Shown here one piece after another: positions 6,261 through 14,546 of a stretch of 64,000 nt of DNA. Below the pieces are notes generated by a model. The model saw nothing but the letters and a program-made list of their open reading frames with translations, ran no database searches and was not told the origin of the DNA. This DNA is from an uncultured Pelagibacteraceae bacterium. GTDB taxonomy: Bacteria > Pseudomonadota > Alphaproteobacteria > Pelagibacterales > Pelagibacteraceae. Made by a program: the position numbers and the translations under genes. The stretch lies in assembly GCA_902618695.1 (NCBI GenBank), contig CACNCB010000004.1, positions 1 to 64,000 on the forward strand. The letters are read 5' to 3'. Every line of letters starts with the position of its first letter. The first letter of the stretch is position 1.

Positions 6261-7478
6261 ATGGAACGACCAGATTTTTTCGAACTTAAAAACGGTGAAA
6301 AAGTAAAATTACCATTTACTGACAAAGAATATAACGATCGAGTAAGTAAACTTAGATCGGTGATGGACCAAAATGGTCTTAATATGATTATCTTAACATC
6401 CATGCATAACGTTGCATATTACACAGGTTTTATTTACTGTTCTTTTGGTAGACCTTACGGATGTGTGATCACTCAAAATAAAATTTCAACAATTTCAGCT
6501 AACATTGATGCAAGTCAACCATGGCGTAGGTCTCATTGTGATAACGTTATTTATACTGATTGGAAAAGAGATAATTTTTTAAAAGCCATTGTTTCAATCA
6601 TTGGAAGAGATGAGCCTCCAAAAAATATTGGAATTGAAAATGATCATGTCACGCTAGATATGCGAGAAAAAATAGGGTCTATTTTTACTTTCTCTGTGTT
6701 TACTGATGTATCAAAAGATCTAATGAAACTTAGAATGATTAAATCGAACGAAGAAATTGAGATCATCAGAAATGGTGCAAGAATTGCAGACATTGGTGGT
6801 GAAGAAATAGTTAAAAATATTAGAGAAAATAATACAGAGATTGAAGTAGCGATAGCAGCAAGAGATAGAATGGAAAGAGAGATTGTTAAAAGTTATCCAG
6901 GCGCAGAGTATATGGACACCTGGGTATGGTTTCAATCTGGTATCAATACAGATGGAGCTCACAATCCAAAGACTAATAGAAAATTAGTTAAAGGAGATAT
7001 TTTATCTTTGAATACTTTTCCAATGATCTCAGGATACTACACAGCGCTAGAGCGAACTTTATTTTTAGATCATGCTAATGATGCCTCACTTAAAGCATGG
7101 GAAGCAAACGTAAAAGTGCATAAGCGAGGATTAGAATTAATTAAACCAGGTGTTAAATGTTCAGATATTTGTCATGAGTTAAATGAATTGTTTGCTGAAC
7201 TTGGTTACCTTCAGTATAGAACTTTTGGTTACGGACATTCATTTGGTATACTTTCTCACTTTTATGGTAGAGAAGCAGGTTTAGAATTAAGAGAAGACAT
7301 TGATACTATTCTTGAGGAAAACATGGTGGTTTCAATGGAACCGATGATAATGATACCAGAGAGTAATCCTGGTGCAGGTGGATATAGAGAACACGATATT
7401 TTGGTGATTGGTAAAGATGGAGTAGAAAATATTACAAAATTTCCTTTCGGCCCCGAGCATAATATTATAAAAAACTAA
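6261..7478 (+). CDS. Creatinase (creatine amidinohydrolase, M24 pita-bread fold)
   Basis: Extensive match to remembered Pseudomonas creatinase: YYTGFIYCSFGRPYG, ISANIDASQPWRR, MDTWVWFQSGINTDGAHNP, QYRTFGYGHSFGILSHFYGREAGLELREDIDT, GGYREHDIL. Confidence 0.92.
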   Translation: MERPDFFELKNGEKVKLPFTDKEYNDRVSKLRSVMDQNGLNMIILTSMHNVAYYTGFIYCSFGRPYGCVITQNKISTISANIDASQPWRRSHCDNVIYTDWKRDNFLKAIVSIIGRDEPPKNIGIENDHVTLDMREKIGSIFTFSVFTDVSKDLMKLRMIKSNEEIEIIRNGARIADIGGEEIVKNIRENNTEIEVAIAARDRMEREIVKSYPGAEYMDTWVWFQSGINTDGAHNPKTNRKLVKGDILSLNTFPMISGYYTALERTLFLDHANDASLKAWEANVKVHKRGLELIKPGVKCSDICHELNELFAELGYLQYRTFGYGHSFGILSHFYGREAGLELREDIDTILEENMVVSMEPMIMIPESNPGAGGYREHDILVIGKDGVENITKFPFGPEHNIIKN

Positions 7479-7483
7479 TCCTT

Positions 7484-8599
7484 ATGAGTGAGAATAAAAC
7501 TATTGTTAATAGTTGGAATGAGTGGGATCCGTTAAAACATGTAATTGTTGGTAGAGCGGATGGCACATGTATACCTGCGCCTGAACCAGCATTAGATGCA
7601 AAAGTTCCAGAAGACAGTGATATGCGAGGTCAGTTTGGACCAAGAACCAAAGATACTGTTGATAAAGCAAATGAATTATTAGATAACTTTTCAAATATGC
7701 TTGAAAAAAGAGGCATTAAAGTTGATCGACCGACACCAATAGATTTTAATCAAAAAACATCTACACCTGATTGGAAAGCAGAAACCATGTTTGGCTGCAT
7801 GCCTCCTAGAGATGTTTTGTTAACAGTGGGTAACGAAATTTTAGAAGCTACAATGAGTTATCGTTGTCGTTGGTTTGAATATTTATGTTATCGACCACTT
7901 CTAAAAGATTATTATAATCAAGATCCTAATATGAGACACGAGTCTGCTCCAAAGCCAAGACTAACGGATGCAGATTATAGAAAAGATTATCTATCAGATA
8001 AAATTGGTGTTCAAAAAAGATTAGAGTGGACTGAGAAAAGATATTTTGTAACTACTGAAGAAGAACCATTATTTGATGCAGCGGACGTACTAAGATTTGG
8101 TAAAGATTTAGTTGTTCAACATGGTTTTACAACAAATTTAAAAGGAATTGATTGGCTTAAAAGACATTATAAAGATCACAGAGTTCATGCAGTTAATTTC
8201 CCGGGAGATCCATATCCTATTCACATTGATGCAACTTTTACCCCAATTAAAGAGGGTTTAATTATCAATAACCCGCAAAGAAGACTTCCTAAGGAACAAA
8301 GAAAATTATTTGAAGACAATGGTTGGGAAATTGTAGACAGTGCACAACCAGCACACAATGAACCACCTCCATTATGTTATTCATCAACTTGGCTATCAAT
8401 GAATGTTTTAGTTTTGGATCCAAAAACTGTATGTGTGGAGAAAAGTGAAAAATACCAAGCTGAACAATTAGATAAATTAGGAATGGAAGTTATACCAGTA
8501 GAACTTAGAGATGCCTACGCTTTTGGTGGAGGTTTACATTGTTGTACTGCTGATGTTTACAGAGAAGGTGAACTCAAAGATTATTTTCCAAAACAATAA
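7484..8599 (+). CDS. L-arginine:glycine amidinotransferase (AGAT/GATM family)
   Basis: NEWDPLKHVIVGRADG N-terminus, PRDVLLTVGNEILEATMSYRCRWFEYL, catalytic-Cys context GGGLHCCTADV. Confidence 0.92.
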   Translation: MSENKTIVNSWNEWDPLKHVIVGRADGTCIPAPEPALDAKVPEDSDMRGQFGPRTKDTVDKANELLDNFSNMLEKRGIKVDRPTPIDFNQKTSTPDWKAETMFGCMPPRDVLLTVGNEILEATMSYRCRWFEYLCYRPLLKDYYNQDPNMRHESAPKPRLTDADYRKDYLSDKIGVQKRLEWTEKRYFVTTEEEPLFDAADVLRFGKDLVVQHGFTTNLKGIDWLKRHYKDHRVHAVNFPGDPYPIHIDATFTPIKEGLIINNPQRRLPKEQRKLFEDNGWEIVDSAQPAHNEPPPLCYSSTWLSMNVLVLDPKTVCVEKSEKYQAEQLDKLGMEVIPVELRDAYAFGGGLHCCTADVYREGELKDYFPKQ

Positions 8600-8827
8600 T
8601 TAATTTGGATTTTGTTTTAAAAATTTAATGTATTTAACAACTTCATTATACTTTTCATCAGGAATATCTTTGTAGCTAGCATTAAATTTACTTTTCACAG
8701 AAATAGCAACATGAGCATAGGGGTTTCTTCCTTTAGGGTGGTTTGGGTGATCAGGTAATTGACCTACCAAATAATCGCCAGCTTCCTGAATAATTTTCCA
8801 GAGTTTACTTGCGTTTTCTTTATTCAT
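8600..8827 (-). CDS. Small conserved-looking hypothetical protein (75 aa); its 5' end is duplicated at 13989-14049
   Basis: Open ORF; first 20 codons nearly identical in a second truncated copy. Confidence 0.7.
   Translation of the reverse strand: MNKENASKLWKIIQEAGDYLVGQLPDHPNHPKGRNPYAHVAISVKSKFNASYKDIPDEKYNEVVKYIKFLKQNPN
8767..8827. repeat. Outer direct repeat, left copy (61 bp)
   Basis: 59/61 identical to 13989-14049, same orientation; mismatches at 8777 (g/a) and 8822 (a/g). Confidence 0.95.
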
Positions 8828-8853
8828 GCCACTTCAAAACTTGTATTATTTCG

Positions 8854-8879
8854 AATATATCTAGTCGTATATCTAGTTT
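8854..8879. repeat. Inner direct repeat, left copy (26 bp) with internal tandem half-sites TATATCTAG-TCG-TATATCTAG
   Basis: aatatatctagtcgtatatctagttt versus aatatacctagtcgtatatctagttt at 13848-13873 (25/26). Confidence 0.95.
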
Positions 8880-9001
8880 AGCCCATTTTACAATTATCCT
8901 AAATATTCGTTTCAATTAATAATACTAATTTTTAATAAATTTATTCAATCCTAGATTGAAATAATTTTAAAATATTTTTTAATTATTTGTTGCTTTTTAT
9001 T

Positions 9002-9013
9002 ATCATATATGAT
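9002..9013. promoter_or_regulatory. Possible operator palindrome upstream of the cassette
   Basis: Perfect 12-bp palindrome ATCATATATGAT about 50 bp upstream of the first ATG (9062); followed by a 9-bp-arm inverted repeat 9014-9022/9035-9043. AT-rich, so chance is possible. Confidence 0.3.
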
Positions 9014-9061
9014 TAATATTATACAAATATTTTAATAATATTAGAAAGAGATAAAGTAAAT

Positions 9062-9283
9062 ATGAGTAAAAAAAATGATAAATTCAAAGAACTAGCTGAA
9101 AACAGAGTAAGAAAAGCTATTAAACTTTTAAAGCTTATTGGAAACTTAGCTAACAAAACTCACTATGATTATTCTTCACATGATGCGAATAAAATAATTT
9201 CTGTTTTAAGAAATGAAGTTAAAAACATTGAGACAAGATTTAAGTCAAAAAACTCAACAGATGATAATGATTTTAAACTTTAG
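9062..9283 (+). CDS. Small helical hypothetical protein, first gene of cassette
   Basis: 73 aa; KFKELAENRVRKAIKLLKLIGNLANKTHYDYSSHDANKIISVLRNEVK; purine-rich SD-like agaaagag upstream. Confidence 0.75.
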   Translation: MSKKNDKFKELAENRVRKAIKLLKLIGNLANKTHYDYSSHDANKIISVLRNEVKNIETRFKSKNSTDDNDFKL

Positions 9284-9289
9284 TAAATT

Positions 9290-9850
9290 ATGAAAAAATT
9301 AAGTGTTATTGAAATTTTATTGCAAGGAATGTTCTCATTAGGGGGAGTTCAAAAATTTCTAGAAACTGAAGATATCGCAAAAAAATCATATAAAATTTCA
9401 CCAAATACATTTTGTTGGAAAAAATATAGAGATCAAATTGATATAAGTAAAGTTAGAGTAAATCTTAATTTAGCTAAAAATAAAGGTTACGTATCTGGAA
9501 ATGAAAAAAAAGGATGGATGTTAAATCATAAAGGTTTAGATGTTATTAATGCTTCAAAAAATAAACTTAACAACGGTTTTAAATTAAGAATACTTAAAAA
9601 AGATAAAATAGAACAACAAAAAGAAATTTTAAGAATATCTAGTTCCATAGCTTATAAAAATTTTATAAACGAAAAAATAAAACCCTCATACAGACAAATG
9701 GAAGAGGTTTTTAATATTAATAGCTATGTGATAGGCGAACAGAGAAAAAGAAGAATAAATAAAGTAGTTAATTTATGTAAGCAGGAATTAACTATTTATA
9801 ACTTTTTAAATAAAAATAAAAAAATCTTAAATAAACGAAAGGAGAAGTAA
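9290..9850 (+). CDS. Winged-helix-like hypothetical protein, cassette gene 2
   Basis: 186 aa; N-terminal part (DISKVRVNLNLAKNKGYVSGNEKKGWMLNHKGLDVINASK) reads as a wHTH; lysine-rich C-terminus; 2 bp from the next gene. Confidence 0.75.
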   Translation: MKKLSVIEILLQGMFSLGGVQKFLETEDIAKKSYKISPNTFCWKKYRDQIDISKVRVNLNLAKNKGYVSGNEKKGWMLNHKGLDVINASKNKLNNGFKLRILKKDKIEQQKEILRISSSIAYKNFINEKIKPSYRQMEEVFNINSYVIGEQRKRRINKVVNLCKQELTIYNFLNKNKKILNKRKEK

Positions 9851-9851
9851 A

Positions 9852-11471
9852 ATGGGTCAGGTTATCCCAATAAAAATAGAGAAAACAAGAGCGGTTGTTC
9901 AATCAGCAAATTCATTTGGAAGTATTTCAGTAGTTATATGGGAATATATTGCTAATGGTATTGATTATATAAATAAGGGCACAAAACCTCAAATGGAGGT
10001 GATCATTGAAAAAGATAAGATTATTTTTTCTGATAATGGAAGAGGTTTGGACACCGAAGATCTTCAAAATTTCTTTACAGCCTATGCTGAAAACAGGGAT
10101 AGAGTTTCAGGAAATTACAGTTTTTTGAGAAGAGGATATTTTGGAACTGGAGGATTTTCAGTTTTCAAAATTGCTAAAAGTTTAAATATTACTTCAGTTA
10201 AAAATAAAAAACTTTATTCAGGCAAAATATCATTTGAAGATATTAAAAAAGATAAAGGTTTTGAACTTGATACAGTAGGTAAAAAAACAGATCTTGCAAA
10301 TGGTACTAAATTTGAGGTGTCTGATTTTTATAAAGAAATTACAAAAAAGCAAATTGTAGATATTAAAGATTACGTTCAAAAACAGATGATGAATGTAAAA
10401 GGTGCTGAGGTTTGGATAAATAATGATTTATTAGAGTACAAAGAACCAGCAATCGAAAAAGAATTAACAAAAGTAATAAAATCTAAAGATACAGTTTTTT
10501 ATGACGATCTAAACGATTTAGGTTTTGGTGCTGGAAATATAACACTTACTCTTAAAAAAACAAAAAAACCTCTTCCAAAAGGAGAATATGGAGTTGCAGT
10601 TTTAGGCGACGGGAATCTGCTTGAAGTATGTTCACCTGGAATAGAAACTAAAAAATATTGTGATTATATAATTGGTGAAGCTGAAATAGAAAATATTTAC
10701 CAAAATTTGGAAAAATTTGATCCACCATTGTTTGATCAAAGTCGACGTAGAGAATTAAGTTTAGAAAATAAATATGTTTTAAAACTTAGAGCTTTTATTG
10801 GGATTGAATTAGAAAAATTTGAGAAAGAAGTTTCAAATGTAGAAAAAGAACGAGAACAATCCAAAATGGATAAAGAGCTCAATAAAAAACTGGATCAACT
10901 AAGTCAAAAAACAAATGAAGTATTGAATAATGTTTGGGATAAACTAAATCTGAATTCTTTAAATAGTCAGAATTTATCAAAAAAAAGTAAAAAACTTACT
11001 GCATTAAAGGATGTTATTACAAATATTACAAAAAAAGGAGAAGACTTTTATTTATCAAATAAAAATAAAAATAAAAAAGATAAAAACGAGCCAAAACCAT
11101 TTGATAAAAAGATAAACAAAAAAAATAATTCCAAAGAAGAAGAAGATAAATCTAAAACAAATAATTCTGGTGGACTTTTAATTAAACAAAAAGGTTTAGG
11201 AGAAGATGAAGGCAGAGCTTATTTTGATGAAAAACGTGCAACAATTTTTATAAACACTGACTTTCCTTTAATTAAAAGATTTATTGAAAAAGGGGATTAT
11301 GAGAATAAACAATTTGATTTATTACTTAAGGAAATAGCTTTAACAGAATTATCTATAGCAATTACAACTATCTTACAAAGAGATGGCTATTACGGAGATG
11401 ATAATCTTACAGCATTAGTTGATTTAAGAAACAGAATTAATGATTTTTCAATTAAATTGGATTCTGTATAA
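9852..11471 (+). CDS. GHKL (HATPase_c) ATPase of the MutL/MORC/Hsp90-like type, cassette gene 3
   Basis: N-box WEYIANGIDYI, G1 DNGRGL, G2 RRGYFGTGGFS, G3 NGTKFEVSDF; low-complexity linker about aa 400-440 and a separate C-terminal domain. Confidence 0.85.
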   Translation: MGQVIPIKIEKTRAVVQSANSFGSISVVIWEYIANGIDYINKGTKPQMEVIIEKDKIIFSDNGRGLDTEDLQNFFTAYAENRDRVSGNYSFLRRGYFGTGGFSVFKIAKSLNITSVKNKKLYSGKISFEDIKKDKGFELDTVGKKTDLANGTKFEVSDFYKEITKKQIVDIKDYVQKQMMNVKGAEVWINNDLLEYKEPAIEKELTKVIKSKDTVFYDDLNDLGFGAGNITLTLKKTKKPLPKGEYGVAVLGDGNLLEVCSPGIETKKYCDYIIGEAEIENIYQNLEKFDPPLFDQSRRRELSLENKYVLKLRAFIGIELEKFEKEVSNVEKEREQSKMDKELNKKLDQLSQKTNEVLNNVWDKLNLNSLNSQNLSKKSKKLTALKDVITNITKKGEDFYLSNKNKNKKDKNEPKPFDKKINKKNNSKEEEDKSKTNNSGGLLIKQKGLGEDEGRAYFDEKRATIFINTDFPLIKRFIEKGDYENKQFDLLLKEIALTELSIAITTILQRDGYYGDDNLTALVDLRNRINDFSIKLDSV

Positions 11472-11473
11472 TA

Positions 11474-13552
11474 ATGTCAATGAGTAACTACACTGAGAAA
11501 GAATTATTACCAGCAGCTGTCGAAGTTATTAATAATCATCCAGGTGGCATAGATACTCAGAAATTAATAAGAGAATTAAGATTTAAACTAAAACCAAATG
11601 GTGAAGATACAGTTATCCTGCTCAACAGATCAGATGATAAATTTAGTCAAAAAGTAAGGAATCTTAAGTCACACAAAACATTAGAAAAAAAAAATTTTGT
11701 CACTTTTTCGGAAAATAAGTTTTTTATAACTAATGATGGTAAAAATTATCTAAATAGTAATAATAATGAACCAAACTTAAATGATGATAAAATATTATTT
11801 AATTTTATCCCTTTGAAATATTTTAATTTCCCAAAAAGATCTACAAACGCCCTCAAAGCAGTTAAATGTGAATATGTATATGATTTAAATTTACTAACTA
11901 ATTTCGGTTTTGATTATAAAAGTTTATTAAAAGTTCCAAATTTTGGAAGAACATCTATTAAGGATTTTGATAGATTTTATTCAAAATACTCAAAATTTAT
12001 TACATCTGATATTTTTGATATTGATTTAGATCATAAGATTATTTCTGAAGCAAATATAAAGAAAAAAAATAAAATAAATCAATTTGTTATCAATAATATT
12101 GAGACTTATGTTTCAAATTTAGAGTCAAAACAAGATACATCTAAATTTAACAATATAAATCAAGAAACAAGAGAAACTAAATTAGAAAAAATTCTCGACG
12201 TGCTAATAAATAAATCAACAAAATCAGACAGGGAAATTAAAATATTTTATGAAAGAATCCTTGGAGATAAAACCCTAGAGGAAATAGGTTTAGAGGCTGG
12301 CGTTACAAGAGAAAGAATTAGGCAACAAGAAAAAAAAATATTAAGAAAAATAAAAAGATCGATCACTGTCAAAGACTGTCTTGAAAAAATATCGATAATT
12401 ATGAGAAAACTTATACTTGAGTCAGATGAAGATTTCATGAAAAAATTAATATCAAATAATTTAATTGATGGCAGAATTACTGTTTATCAATTAAAAAAAC
12501 TTTTTTTACAGTGTGATTTTGAAGATCAAGCAAACAAGATTCAAAAAATCAGAGGTCATTTTTTTGTAGTAGAAAGTGAAAAATACAGAAGTCATCTTTT
12601 AACTTTTATTAGAAAATATTTTCGAGAGACTATGGTAAAAAATGGGATAATTAATATTCCTCTAATGCTTAAAGAAATTCAAAGAAGACAATTTAAAATG
12701 AGCAAAACATATTTAATGAAAATTATTAGTCCTATTAAAAATAAAGGAAATTCAATAATAATTGAAAACGAATACTATTTACCAAATTTTAGGGGTTCTA
12801 AGAAGAGAAGCTGGAACAGATTGATTGGAGGAATTCATTCAACAATGTCTGTAACCAAAAAAATAGATACAGAAGAACTAATCGAATGTTTAAAAAGATA
12901 TAGGAGAATAGATAATTTTTCTCCTCCAACAAAAATATTAAAAATAATTTGTCAAAATATTGGATATGAAATTGAGGATGAATATATTGTAAATCCAGAT
13001 TATACCTTGAACAATAACTATCTAGTAGGTGTTAGAAAAAAACTTTTCCAAATGTTTATCGATAATGAGAGAGTAATGACTTACGAGGATATTCTAGATC
13101 AGTATGAAAAATATGATCTTAATATTAACTCAGTTCATGTAATGATATATGAAAATCTTTTTACACTTCCTAAAAAAGGTATCTATGTACTTGCAGGCAC
13201 AGAAATCTCAGAAGATAAGTTGAATGAATTAGACGAAAAAAGACAATTTAAACTAAAAGAATTAGCTAAGGAAACAGAGCTTAATTTTCATCATGATGGA
13301 GATGTTGTAGTAAAATTTAATAAAAAATGGTTTTCTAAACACTACATATGGCTGAGTCCTTCATTTATAAACCAAATTCCTATGGGCAACTATGAAATAC
13401 TGATTAATAATAAAAAGTCTATAATAAAAATATTTAGCTCTAGGTTGTGGACATCAAATGAATTAAGAGATCTCATGAAAAAGTTAAATTCAGAAACCAT
13501 TTCATTAAAATTGAATTTAATTGAAAAAAGAGCTGAAGTATTAAGTGAATAG
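11474..13552 (+). CDS. Multi-HTH protein: N-terminal winged helix, RNAP alpha-CTD-like HhH segment, sigma70 region-4-like HTH, further winged-helix-like segments
   Basis: LLKVPNFGRTSIKDF (alpha-CTD-like), FYERILGDKTLEEIGLEAGVTRERIRQQEKKILRKIKR (sigma region-4-like); same operon as the GHKL ATPase. Confidence 0.75.
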   Translation: MSMSNYTEKELLPAAVEVINNHPGGIDTQKLIRELRFKLKPNGEDTVILLNRSDDKFSQKVRNLKSHKTLEKKNFVTFSENKFFITNDGKNYLNSNNNEPNLNDDKILFNFIPLKYFNFPKRSTNALKAVKCEYVYDLNLLTNFGFDYKSLLKVPNFGRTSIKDFDRFYSKYSKFITSDIFDIDLDHKIISEANIKKKNKINQFVINNIETYVSNLESKQDTSKFNNINQETRETKLEKILDVLINKSTKSDREIKIFYERILGDKTLEEIGLEAGVTRERIRQQEKKILRKIKRSITVKDCLEKISIIMRKLILESDEDFMKKLISNNLIDGRITVYQLKKLFLQCDFEDQANKIQKIRGHFFVVESEKYRSHLLTFIRKYFRETMVKNGIINIPLMLKEIQRRQFKMSKTYLMKIISPIKNKGNSIIIENEYYLPNFRGSKKRSWNRLIGGIHSTMSVTKKIDTEELIECLKRYRRIDNFSPPTKILKIICQNIGYEIEDEYIVNPDYTLNNNYLVGVRKKLFQMFIDNERVMTYEDILDQYEKYDLNINSVHVMIYENLFTLPKKGIYVLAGTEISEDKLNELDEKRQFKLKELAKETELNFHHDGDVVVKFNKKWFSKHYIWLSPSFINQIPMGNYEILINNKKSIIKIFSSRLWTSNELRDLMKKLNSETISLKLNLIEKRAEVLSE

Positions 13553-13823
13553 TAATTTTAGATATCAATTAGAGGAAAGATTGGTTTATTCAAAAGAGTG
13601 GGCTATTAATTTTTCAAATAAATTAAAACATTTTGAACTAACAGATAGAGTAGAAAGGGAACTTAATAAACAAAAGCCATTTACGTCATTAATTAGGAGA
13701 ATATATTATTTGCCTTTGAATATTTTAAAATATTATAAAAAAAAACAATTAATTAATGAGTATGAATGGACTTTAAAAGAAATTGAAATTTTAGAAAAAG
13801 AATTAAAAAATTTTCAAAAATAA
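13545..13823 (+). CDS. Small basic hypothetical protein, last cassette gene
   Basis: 92 aa, GTG start, overlaps the upstream gene by 8 nt (translational coupling). Confidence 0.65.
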   Translation: MNSNFRYQLEERLVYSKEWAINFSNKLKHFELTDRVERELNKQKPFTSLIRRIYYLPLNILKYYKKKQLINEYEWTLKEIEILEKELKNFQK

Positions 13824-13847
13824 AAAAATATTTATTGATTTATCTCA

Positions 13848-13873
13848 AATATACCTAGTCGTATATCTAGTTT
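13848..13873. repeat. Inner direct repeat, right copy (26 bp)
   Basis: 25/26 identical to 8854-8879; half-sites TATACCTAG-TCG-TATATCTAG. Confidence 0.95.
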
Positions 13874-13940
13874 GTTGCTTAAATTTAATGAGTCTTGAAG
13901 CGATTTATTTTTAATGAAAGTTAAATAGTCCGCATAAATA

Positions 13941-13980
13941 GTGTGAGGTAGTGTCAGGTAGTGTGAGCTAGTGTGTACCT
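13941..13980. repeat. Imperfect 10-bp tandem repeat, four units
   Basis: gtgtgaggta gtgtcaggta gtgtgagcta gtgtgtacct. Confidence 0.85.
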
Positions 13981-14049
13981 CTAGCACCCCAAATAATCAC
14001 CAGCTTCCTGAATAATTTTCCAGAGTTTACTTGCGTTTTCTTTGTTCAT
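13981..14049 (-). pseudogene. Truncated 5' fragment of the 8600-8827 gene (MNKENASKLWKIIQEAGDYLGC*)
   Basis: 20 matching codons, then two divergent codons and a TAG stop; coincides with outer repeat. Confidence 0.85.
13989..14049. repeat. Outer direct repeat, right copy (61 bp)
   Basis: 59/61 identical to 8767-8827. Confidence 0.95.
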
Positions 14050-14060
14050 AATGATGAATT

Positions 14061-14546
14061 TTATCTAAAAAATAAACTTTTTCTAATATCTATAATTTCT
14101 CTGATCTTTTTTTCTTTAATAGCATTCCAAGAAACAAATAAAGTACACAATTGATACAAAGCAAATATCTCATTTTTTTCATTTTGGGATAAATCACTAT
14201 CTGCCTCTACATAGTCTTCAAAATGAGAAATATTATTTCTTGCACAGTTTAAATAATATTTACAAGCATCTGTGACTGTAGCAGTTGACCACCAGTTTGA
14301 GTCTCTGAAAAGATTAGATATTTCTTGATAGAAAGAACTTGTTTCAGAAATAACCAAATCCTTTTGAACATTTTCTGAAAACTGATCTAATTCAAATTGA
14401 ATTAAAGCTAATATCTTTTTTTCACTACTTCTCTTAACATGTAGTTCAATTACATTTTTATATGACATGGAATTAATTTTATTCCAATTATTGAAAAAAT
14501 CGTTTGGTGCTTTGTTGAGATCGCTCACGTTTAATAATATTTTCAA
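14061..14546 (-). CDS. Hypothetical protein (161 aa)
   Basis: Open ORF; stop lies 11 nt upstream (minus strand) of the duplicated small-gene start. Confidence 0.65.
   Translation of the reverse strand: MKILLNVSDLNKAPNDFFNNWNKINSMSYKNVIELHVKRSSEKKILALIQFELDQFSENVQKDLVISETSSFYQEISNLFRDSNWWSTATVTDACKYYLNCARNNISHFEDYVEADSDLSQNEKNEIFALYQLCTLFVSWNAIKEKKIREIIDIRKSLFFR

Follow-up and report, generated by a model that had tools for sequence, protein, structure and literature searches.

The 5.2-kb insert at the 5′ end of a small gene in the genome of an uncultured Pelagibacteraceae bacterium is likely an integrase-free, site-specific cassette that is mobilized in trans by the integrases of satellites, through arm sites specific for the helper. 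The window, that is, the whole stretch of 64,000 nucleotides that was analyzed, comprises positions 1 to 64,000 of the forward strand of contig CACNCB010000004.1 (assembly GCA_902618695.1). SAR11 are the commonest bacteria of the ocean, and their genomes are streamlined. Judged from sequence comparisons across many such genomes, the first 60 nt of the interrupted gene are the attachment site (att) of a SAR11-wide hot spot. The original prediction for this DNA described the insertion itself; the hot spot, the arm-site pairs, and the integrase-encoding satellites are additions to it.

Insertion Footprint and Empty Site

The target gene (8600–8827, minus strand) encodes a 75-amino acid protein of a conserved, function-unknown family with a match in 122 of 201 genomes of the same genus, and its first 60 nt constitute the attachment site. 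We recovered the direct repeat exactly where it had been placed, as 61 nt at 8767–8827 and 13989–14049 (both minus strand), with 59 of 61 positions (97%) identical and a spacing of 5222, and in the whole 1.23-Mb assembly it occurs in these two copies only (E 2.9e-26 and 1.5e-23). The former copy, which is also recognized by an nhmmer att profile, is the 5′ end of the intact gene, and at least its upstream part was brought by the cassette. The latter is the displaced original 5′ end, which had been read correctly as coding for MNKENASKLWKIIQEAGDYL-G-C-stop, with the stop two codons on, and as starting 11 nt past the stop of the gene at 14061–14546 (minus strand). Nested inside this repeat pair is a second direct repeat, 8841–8879 and 13835–13873, with 87% identity.

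The 61-bp repeat is an insertion footprint. The empty site expected from this interpretation is present in at least four relatives (G038/L006, G172/L060, G058/L013, and G160/L062), where a homologue of the 14061–14546 gene lies directly upstream and is followed, after ~10 nt, by an intact small gene with a single att copy. When the window flanks are joined with the 5,222 bp removed, they align with L006 without gaps through the junction (93.5% over 845 nt), and across the junction with L060, L013, and L062 (about 91%, in L062 again gap-free). Because the joined flanks align through the junction in all four cases, the order proposed as ancestral, with the 14061–14546 gene followed by the small gene, is the one that relatives have. 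Relatives without the cassette carry one repeat copy rather than both, and the cargo at the site differs between genomes rather than one cassette being fixed across the clade.

The suggestion that the insert supplies a new 5′ end is borne out in L039, where attP and attB differ: the gene now starts MSPEKSQ, as in a satellite attP, and the displaced copy retains MNKENAS. Between the two att copies of one element, differences cluster at nt 1–39 and 60, with hardly any left/right differences at nt 40–59, nt 51 excepted. Furthermore, synonymous sites in codons 10–19 of the small gene are less variable than those past codon 20 (Mann–Whitney p = 6e-4). Taking these att differences and codon conservation together with the L039 N-terminus, strand exchange most likely falls within the latter half of the core, with the cassette bringing the new start. 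As the comparison shows, exchange within codons 13–20 placed the 5′ end carried by the cassette in front of the remaining part of the gene, while the old 5′ end was pushed 5.2 kb upstream by the insertion.

Cassette Cargo

The window cassette encodes five proteins, all on the plus strand. A 73-amino acid protein of no known family (9062–9283), with a relative in the L098 cassette, is followed by a 186-amino acid protein (9290–9850) without a significant family in Pfam, PADLOC, or NCBIfam, and by a 539-amino acid GHKL ATPase (HATPase_c_3; 9852–11471; Pfam E 2.8e-8). The ATPase is distantly MutL-like (NCBIfam MutL 1.5e-6, far under the cut-off) and has a single relative, at 27% identity, in 200 other genomes of the genus. 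Next to it lies a 692-amino acid protein with sigma-70 region 4 and alpha-CTD-like domains (11474–13552; Pfam 6.8e-9 and 6e-5), which distantly resembles MzaA (PADLOC 1.8e-5; NCBIfam 7.5e-6, under the cut-off), and a 92-amino acid protein with a weak SAVED_TM effector match (13545–13823; 0.0022). The full MzaA–E set is not present, as these five proteins have no Mza match beyond the weak ones to MzaA and MutL, and the cargo probably serves in defense, as a distant relative of part of the MZA anti-phage system. Profile searches against Pfam, PADLOC, and NCBIfam detected no recombinase domain among the enclosed genes, in agreement with the original prediction, and we reject an integrase within the window cassette on this basis.

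Across the elements, 102 cargo proteins fall into 85 clusters, with 70 of the 102 having no relative in another element, and the cargo is compact (about 82% coding in the 41-element set described below). Cassette cargo is often phage defense: restriction-modification is frequent (types I, II, IIG, and IV; MADS) alongside other functions, and several cassettes carry one gene only, these genes being mutually unrelated.

A Hot Spot in SAR11 Genomes

Extra partial copies of the first ~20 codons of the small gene occur in many genomes, on the same strand and with up to three per locus. We delimited 91 elements of 0.7–6.8 kb in two partly overlapping sets that have some loci in common, namely 41 segments between successive att-bearing copies of the small gene (0.69–6.8 kb, median 1.9 kb) and 50 elements from named, mostly single-cell, genomes. 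The elements occur singly or stacked, with mostly different cargo. The conserved right terminus of the window cassette (~117 nt, 13837–13954, minus strand; profile R1 match E 4.2e-24, and alignment) is common to other cassettes, and its profile has a match in 37 of the 201 genomes of the genus. A scan of named genomes for the att and right-end pattern returned 101 stretches, and the 80 listed among them all belong to Pelagibacteraceae, Pelagibacterales, or Ca. Pelagibacter, mostly from single-cell genomes. A limited search of the open-access literature found no paper on this hot spot or these cassettes.

We note that outlier profile matches (L115–L118) lie off the hot-spot gene, on contigs that lack the full gene and carry att with left arm pairs. 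In L090 and L091, identical att regions lie inverted near both ends of short contigs; these are likely amplification chimeras.

Matched Arm-Site Pairs at the Cassette Ends

Read in the coding orientation, a cassette consists of the displaced att (60 nt), a GGGG..TAG element, CACACTA-type repeats, the conserved stretch, and an arm pair at +117/118, followed by the cargo, a further arm pair at −50, att, and the remainder of the gene. Each arm pair comprises two 9-nt direct repeats (ACTNGNNNN in most), 11–12 nt apart, and then a GAGATAAA-like motif. Offsets from the core are −50/–51 and +117/118 in most of the 41-element set, and +117 to +119 in the 50-element set. In the window, all on the minus strand, the left pair ACTAGATAT-acg-ACTAGATAT lies ~50 nt before the att core (8857–8877), the right pair ACTAGATAT-acg-ACTAGGTAT lies 118 nt after it (13851–13871), and tandem CACACTA-type repeats, of the same type as in satellite attPs, mark the right (P′-like) arm in the sequence (13936–13982). 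The nested second repeat is thus the arm pair of the window cassette. In this arrangement, the cassette ends are laid out like the attP of a tyrosine integrase.

The arm pairs vary between elements and match at both ends of one element. In the first set, the left/right match is 16.7 of 19 positions, compared to 12.2 ± 0.41 when permuted (0 of 20,000 permutations), and in the partly overlapping 50-element set it is 17.2 compared to 12.9 ± 0.41 (0 of 20,000). The left pair of the window, while itself exact, was left unscored by the first-set script because the motif after the pair is degenerate (GAAATAAT). The arm repeat of the window is also used by the L167 and L194 cassettes. Unlike pairs at the two ends were found in L034, L051, the second L037 element (7051–8688), the second L093 element (6709–12529), and L183, which are possibly composites of two cassettes with the inner att lost. 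In L092 and L101, which belong to a different genus of this family, CAGTCTAGT replaces CACACTA in the repeats of the right arm, and the arm sequence therefore differs by lineage.

Satellites with the Same Ends

Three viral contigs (L073, L082, and L112) of 9070, 9003, and 8983 nt have exact end repeats of 29, 81, and 98 nt, respectively, and therefore each probably represents one complete unit, in circular or concatemeric form. Each carries a cassette-type attP, and a tyrosine integrase begins about 70–110 nt past the core; the second arm pair lies inside the first codons of the integrase, with an offset close to that in cassettes. The L073 integrase matches a PHROG integrase (1e-22) and returned no match among 50,697 phage records or PDB sequences. 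L073 also encodes an AEP primase with DUF5906 and a RusA-like protein, and similar proteins are encoded in L082 and L112. The arm pair of L082 is identical to that of a cassette in L042 (the second element there), and this is the sole exact match between a satellite and a cassette pair; no helper with the pair of the window cassette was found in IMG/VR or in 249 other genomes. Satellites are few (three contigs) while cassettes are common, and relatives of the integrase occur in just 5 of 250 genomes.

An element with an integrase is also found at this chromosomal site. In G158, the contig of the small gene also carries, ~7 kb upstream of that gene, an interrupted relative of the L073 integrase (72% identity in the best piece). 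At L157:6879–7200, a decayed satellite, an integrase start directly follows att at the hot spot, but it is truncated and runs into unrelated sequence. On another viral contig (L074:9376–14702), satellite helicase genes lie 3′ of a complete small gene, whose 5′ side carries a left end of the satellite type. In G120 and G167, the integrase relatives lie between copies of a 39–41-bp repeat of the tRNA-Leu(taa) 5′ end, and in G375 the relative follows two such copies enclosing an integrase-free segment with matching arm pairs (L086, 5242–8189). In L084, L085, and L086, the tRNA-Leu(taa) 5′ end is the site of related integrases whose arm pairs are of this kind too (e.g., ACCAGCACA). The integrase relatives at these repeats suggest a second hot spot for the system.

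A 325-amino acid Xer-like recombinase, present in most genomes searched, is not favored as the mobilizer, because the attP layout stands beside a dedicated integrase. Elsewhere in the genome from which the window derives, there are two more integrase-like genes (G000:C1:113029 and G000:C1:295793, of 425 and 526 amino acids).

Proposed Mobility in trans and Alternative Explanations

Cassettes move between species without an integrase of their own. The L036 and L042 cassettes are 99.8% identical over 2298 nt, compared to about 84% for the alignable adjoining core DNA of these two species, and the L059 and L094 cassettes are 99.55% identical, compared to 92% for the core flanks. Among the delimited hot-spot elements, no cassette encodes an integrase. 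Because these integrase-free cassettes nevertheless have ends built like those of integrase-encoding elements, the enzyme is probably borrowed. The matching arm pairs and the recent transfer point to the satellite integrases as the likely source: a satellite-type integrase would recognize the matching pairs and move the cassette in trans, and each pair may address one particular helper.

The att and arm layout common to satellites and cassettes, the truncated integrase start in L157, and the interrupted copy in G158 would also fit cassettes being immobile relics, that is, satellites stripped of their integrase and replication genes after integration. We consider this unlikely, as the ~117-nt right terminus common to cassettes is absent from the three satellites, near-identical cassettes occur in different species, and the cargo is both compact (about 82% coding) and diverse (85 clusters for 102 proteins). 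The original prediction allowed for mobility either in trans or by homologous recombination, and these two options have fared differently. If cassettes were shuffled by homologous recombination across the conserved 60 bp, without any site-specific recombinase, one would not expect fixed pair offsets, pairs that match between ends, or a layout that recurs in elements encoding an integrase. We give this option even less credence than the relics, although 60 bp is near the lower limit of RecA-type exchange and the unlike end pairs of a few elements suggest some exchange between neighbors. The option in trans, by a site-specific integrase, is favored instead. That the cassette codes for its own unrecognized recombinase, for example the 186- or 692-amino acid protein, is highly improbable: several cargo proteins do lack a known family, but the same ends accompany differing cargo (70 singletons among 102 proteins), and several single-gene cassettes carry mutually unrelated genes.

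Extending mobilization in trans by satellite integrases further, SAR11 may share an integron-like cassette pool whose integrase would arrive with phage satellites instead of being resident, with each end pair addressing one integrase type, a reading that we see about as much reason to accept as to doubt. If it is true, the cassettes would be satellites of satellites that bring defense genes into streamlined genomes. A fixed entry point and a minimal cassette format would explain how SAR11 gain variable genes such as restriction systems, matched arm pairs could serve as a search tag for new defense genes lying between them, and the system would allow the specificity with which tyrosine integrases recognize their sites to be tested.

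Comparison with Known Systems

ICE SXT is a large, conjugative element that encodes its integrase and inserts in the 5′ end of prfC. The analogy to it drawn in the original prediction is fair as to geometry, in that SXT likewise enters the 5′ end of a protein gene and supplies a new one; unlike SXT, the window cassette has no integrase. CIMEs are att-flanked elements without recombination genes that stack beside related elements and derive from conjugative elements by deletion. The window cassette shares the flanking att copies and the absence of recombination genes, whereas SAR11 cassettes appear to have a satellite-like parent and have their own conserved terminus.

PICMIs are small marine satellites of Vibrionaceae that encode an integrase, an HTH-type protein, and a primase with DUF5906, integrate at fis, package concatemers, and in some cases carry defense cargo (PMC10803314). 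The SAR11 satellites are alike in their small marine format and in these three proteins, and concatemer packaging would fit their terminally redundant contigs. The integrase and DUF5906 primase are both found in satellite L073 and are both missing from the window cassette, and the target is not fis but the 5′ end of the 75-amino acid gene or, in related elements, tRNA-Leu. Tycheposons and additive flexible genomic islands of streamlined aquatic bacteria are tRNA-based, with a XerD-type recombinase in tycheposons (PMC10872708). They likewise hold variable cargo by repeated att-gene fragments in streamlined oligotrophs, but matched variable arm pairs are not part of that description. The window cassette encodes no recombinase and there is no tRNA in the window, the target being a protein gene. 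CALINs, integron cassette arrays without an integrase (PMC11389934), are likewise integrase-free cassettes stacked at a chromosomal site and moved by an integrase encoded elsewhere, although their attC sites contrast with the 60-nt core and arm sites of SAR11, SAR11 cassettes have one to seven genes each, and the candidate helper is a phage-type integrase that matches phage integrase families. By the features compared, the window element falls outside PICMIs and tycheposons, and probably outside integrons as well. The idea of arm pairs as addresses is the newest part and still a proposal, and by analogy the element resembles an integrase-free satellite hitchhiker that is CALIN-like in how cassettes are held at a fixed site.
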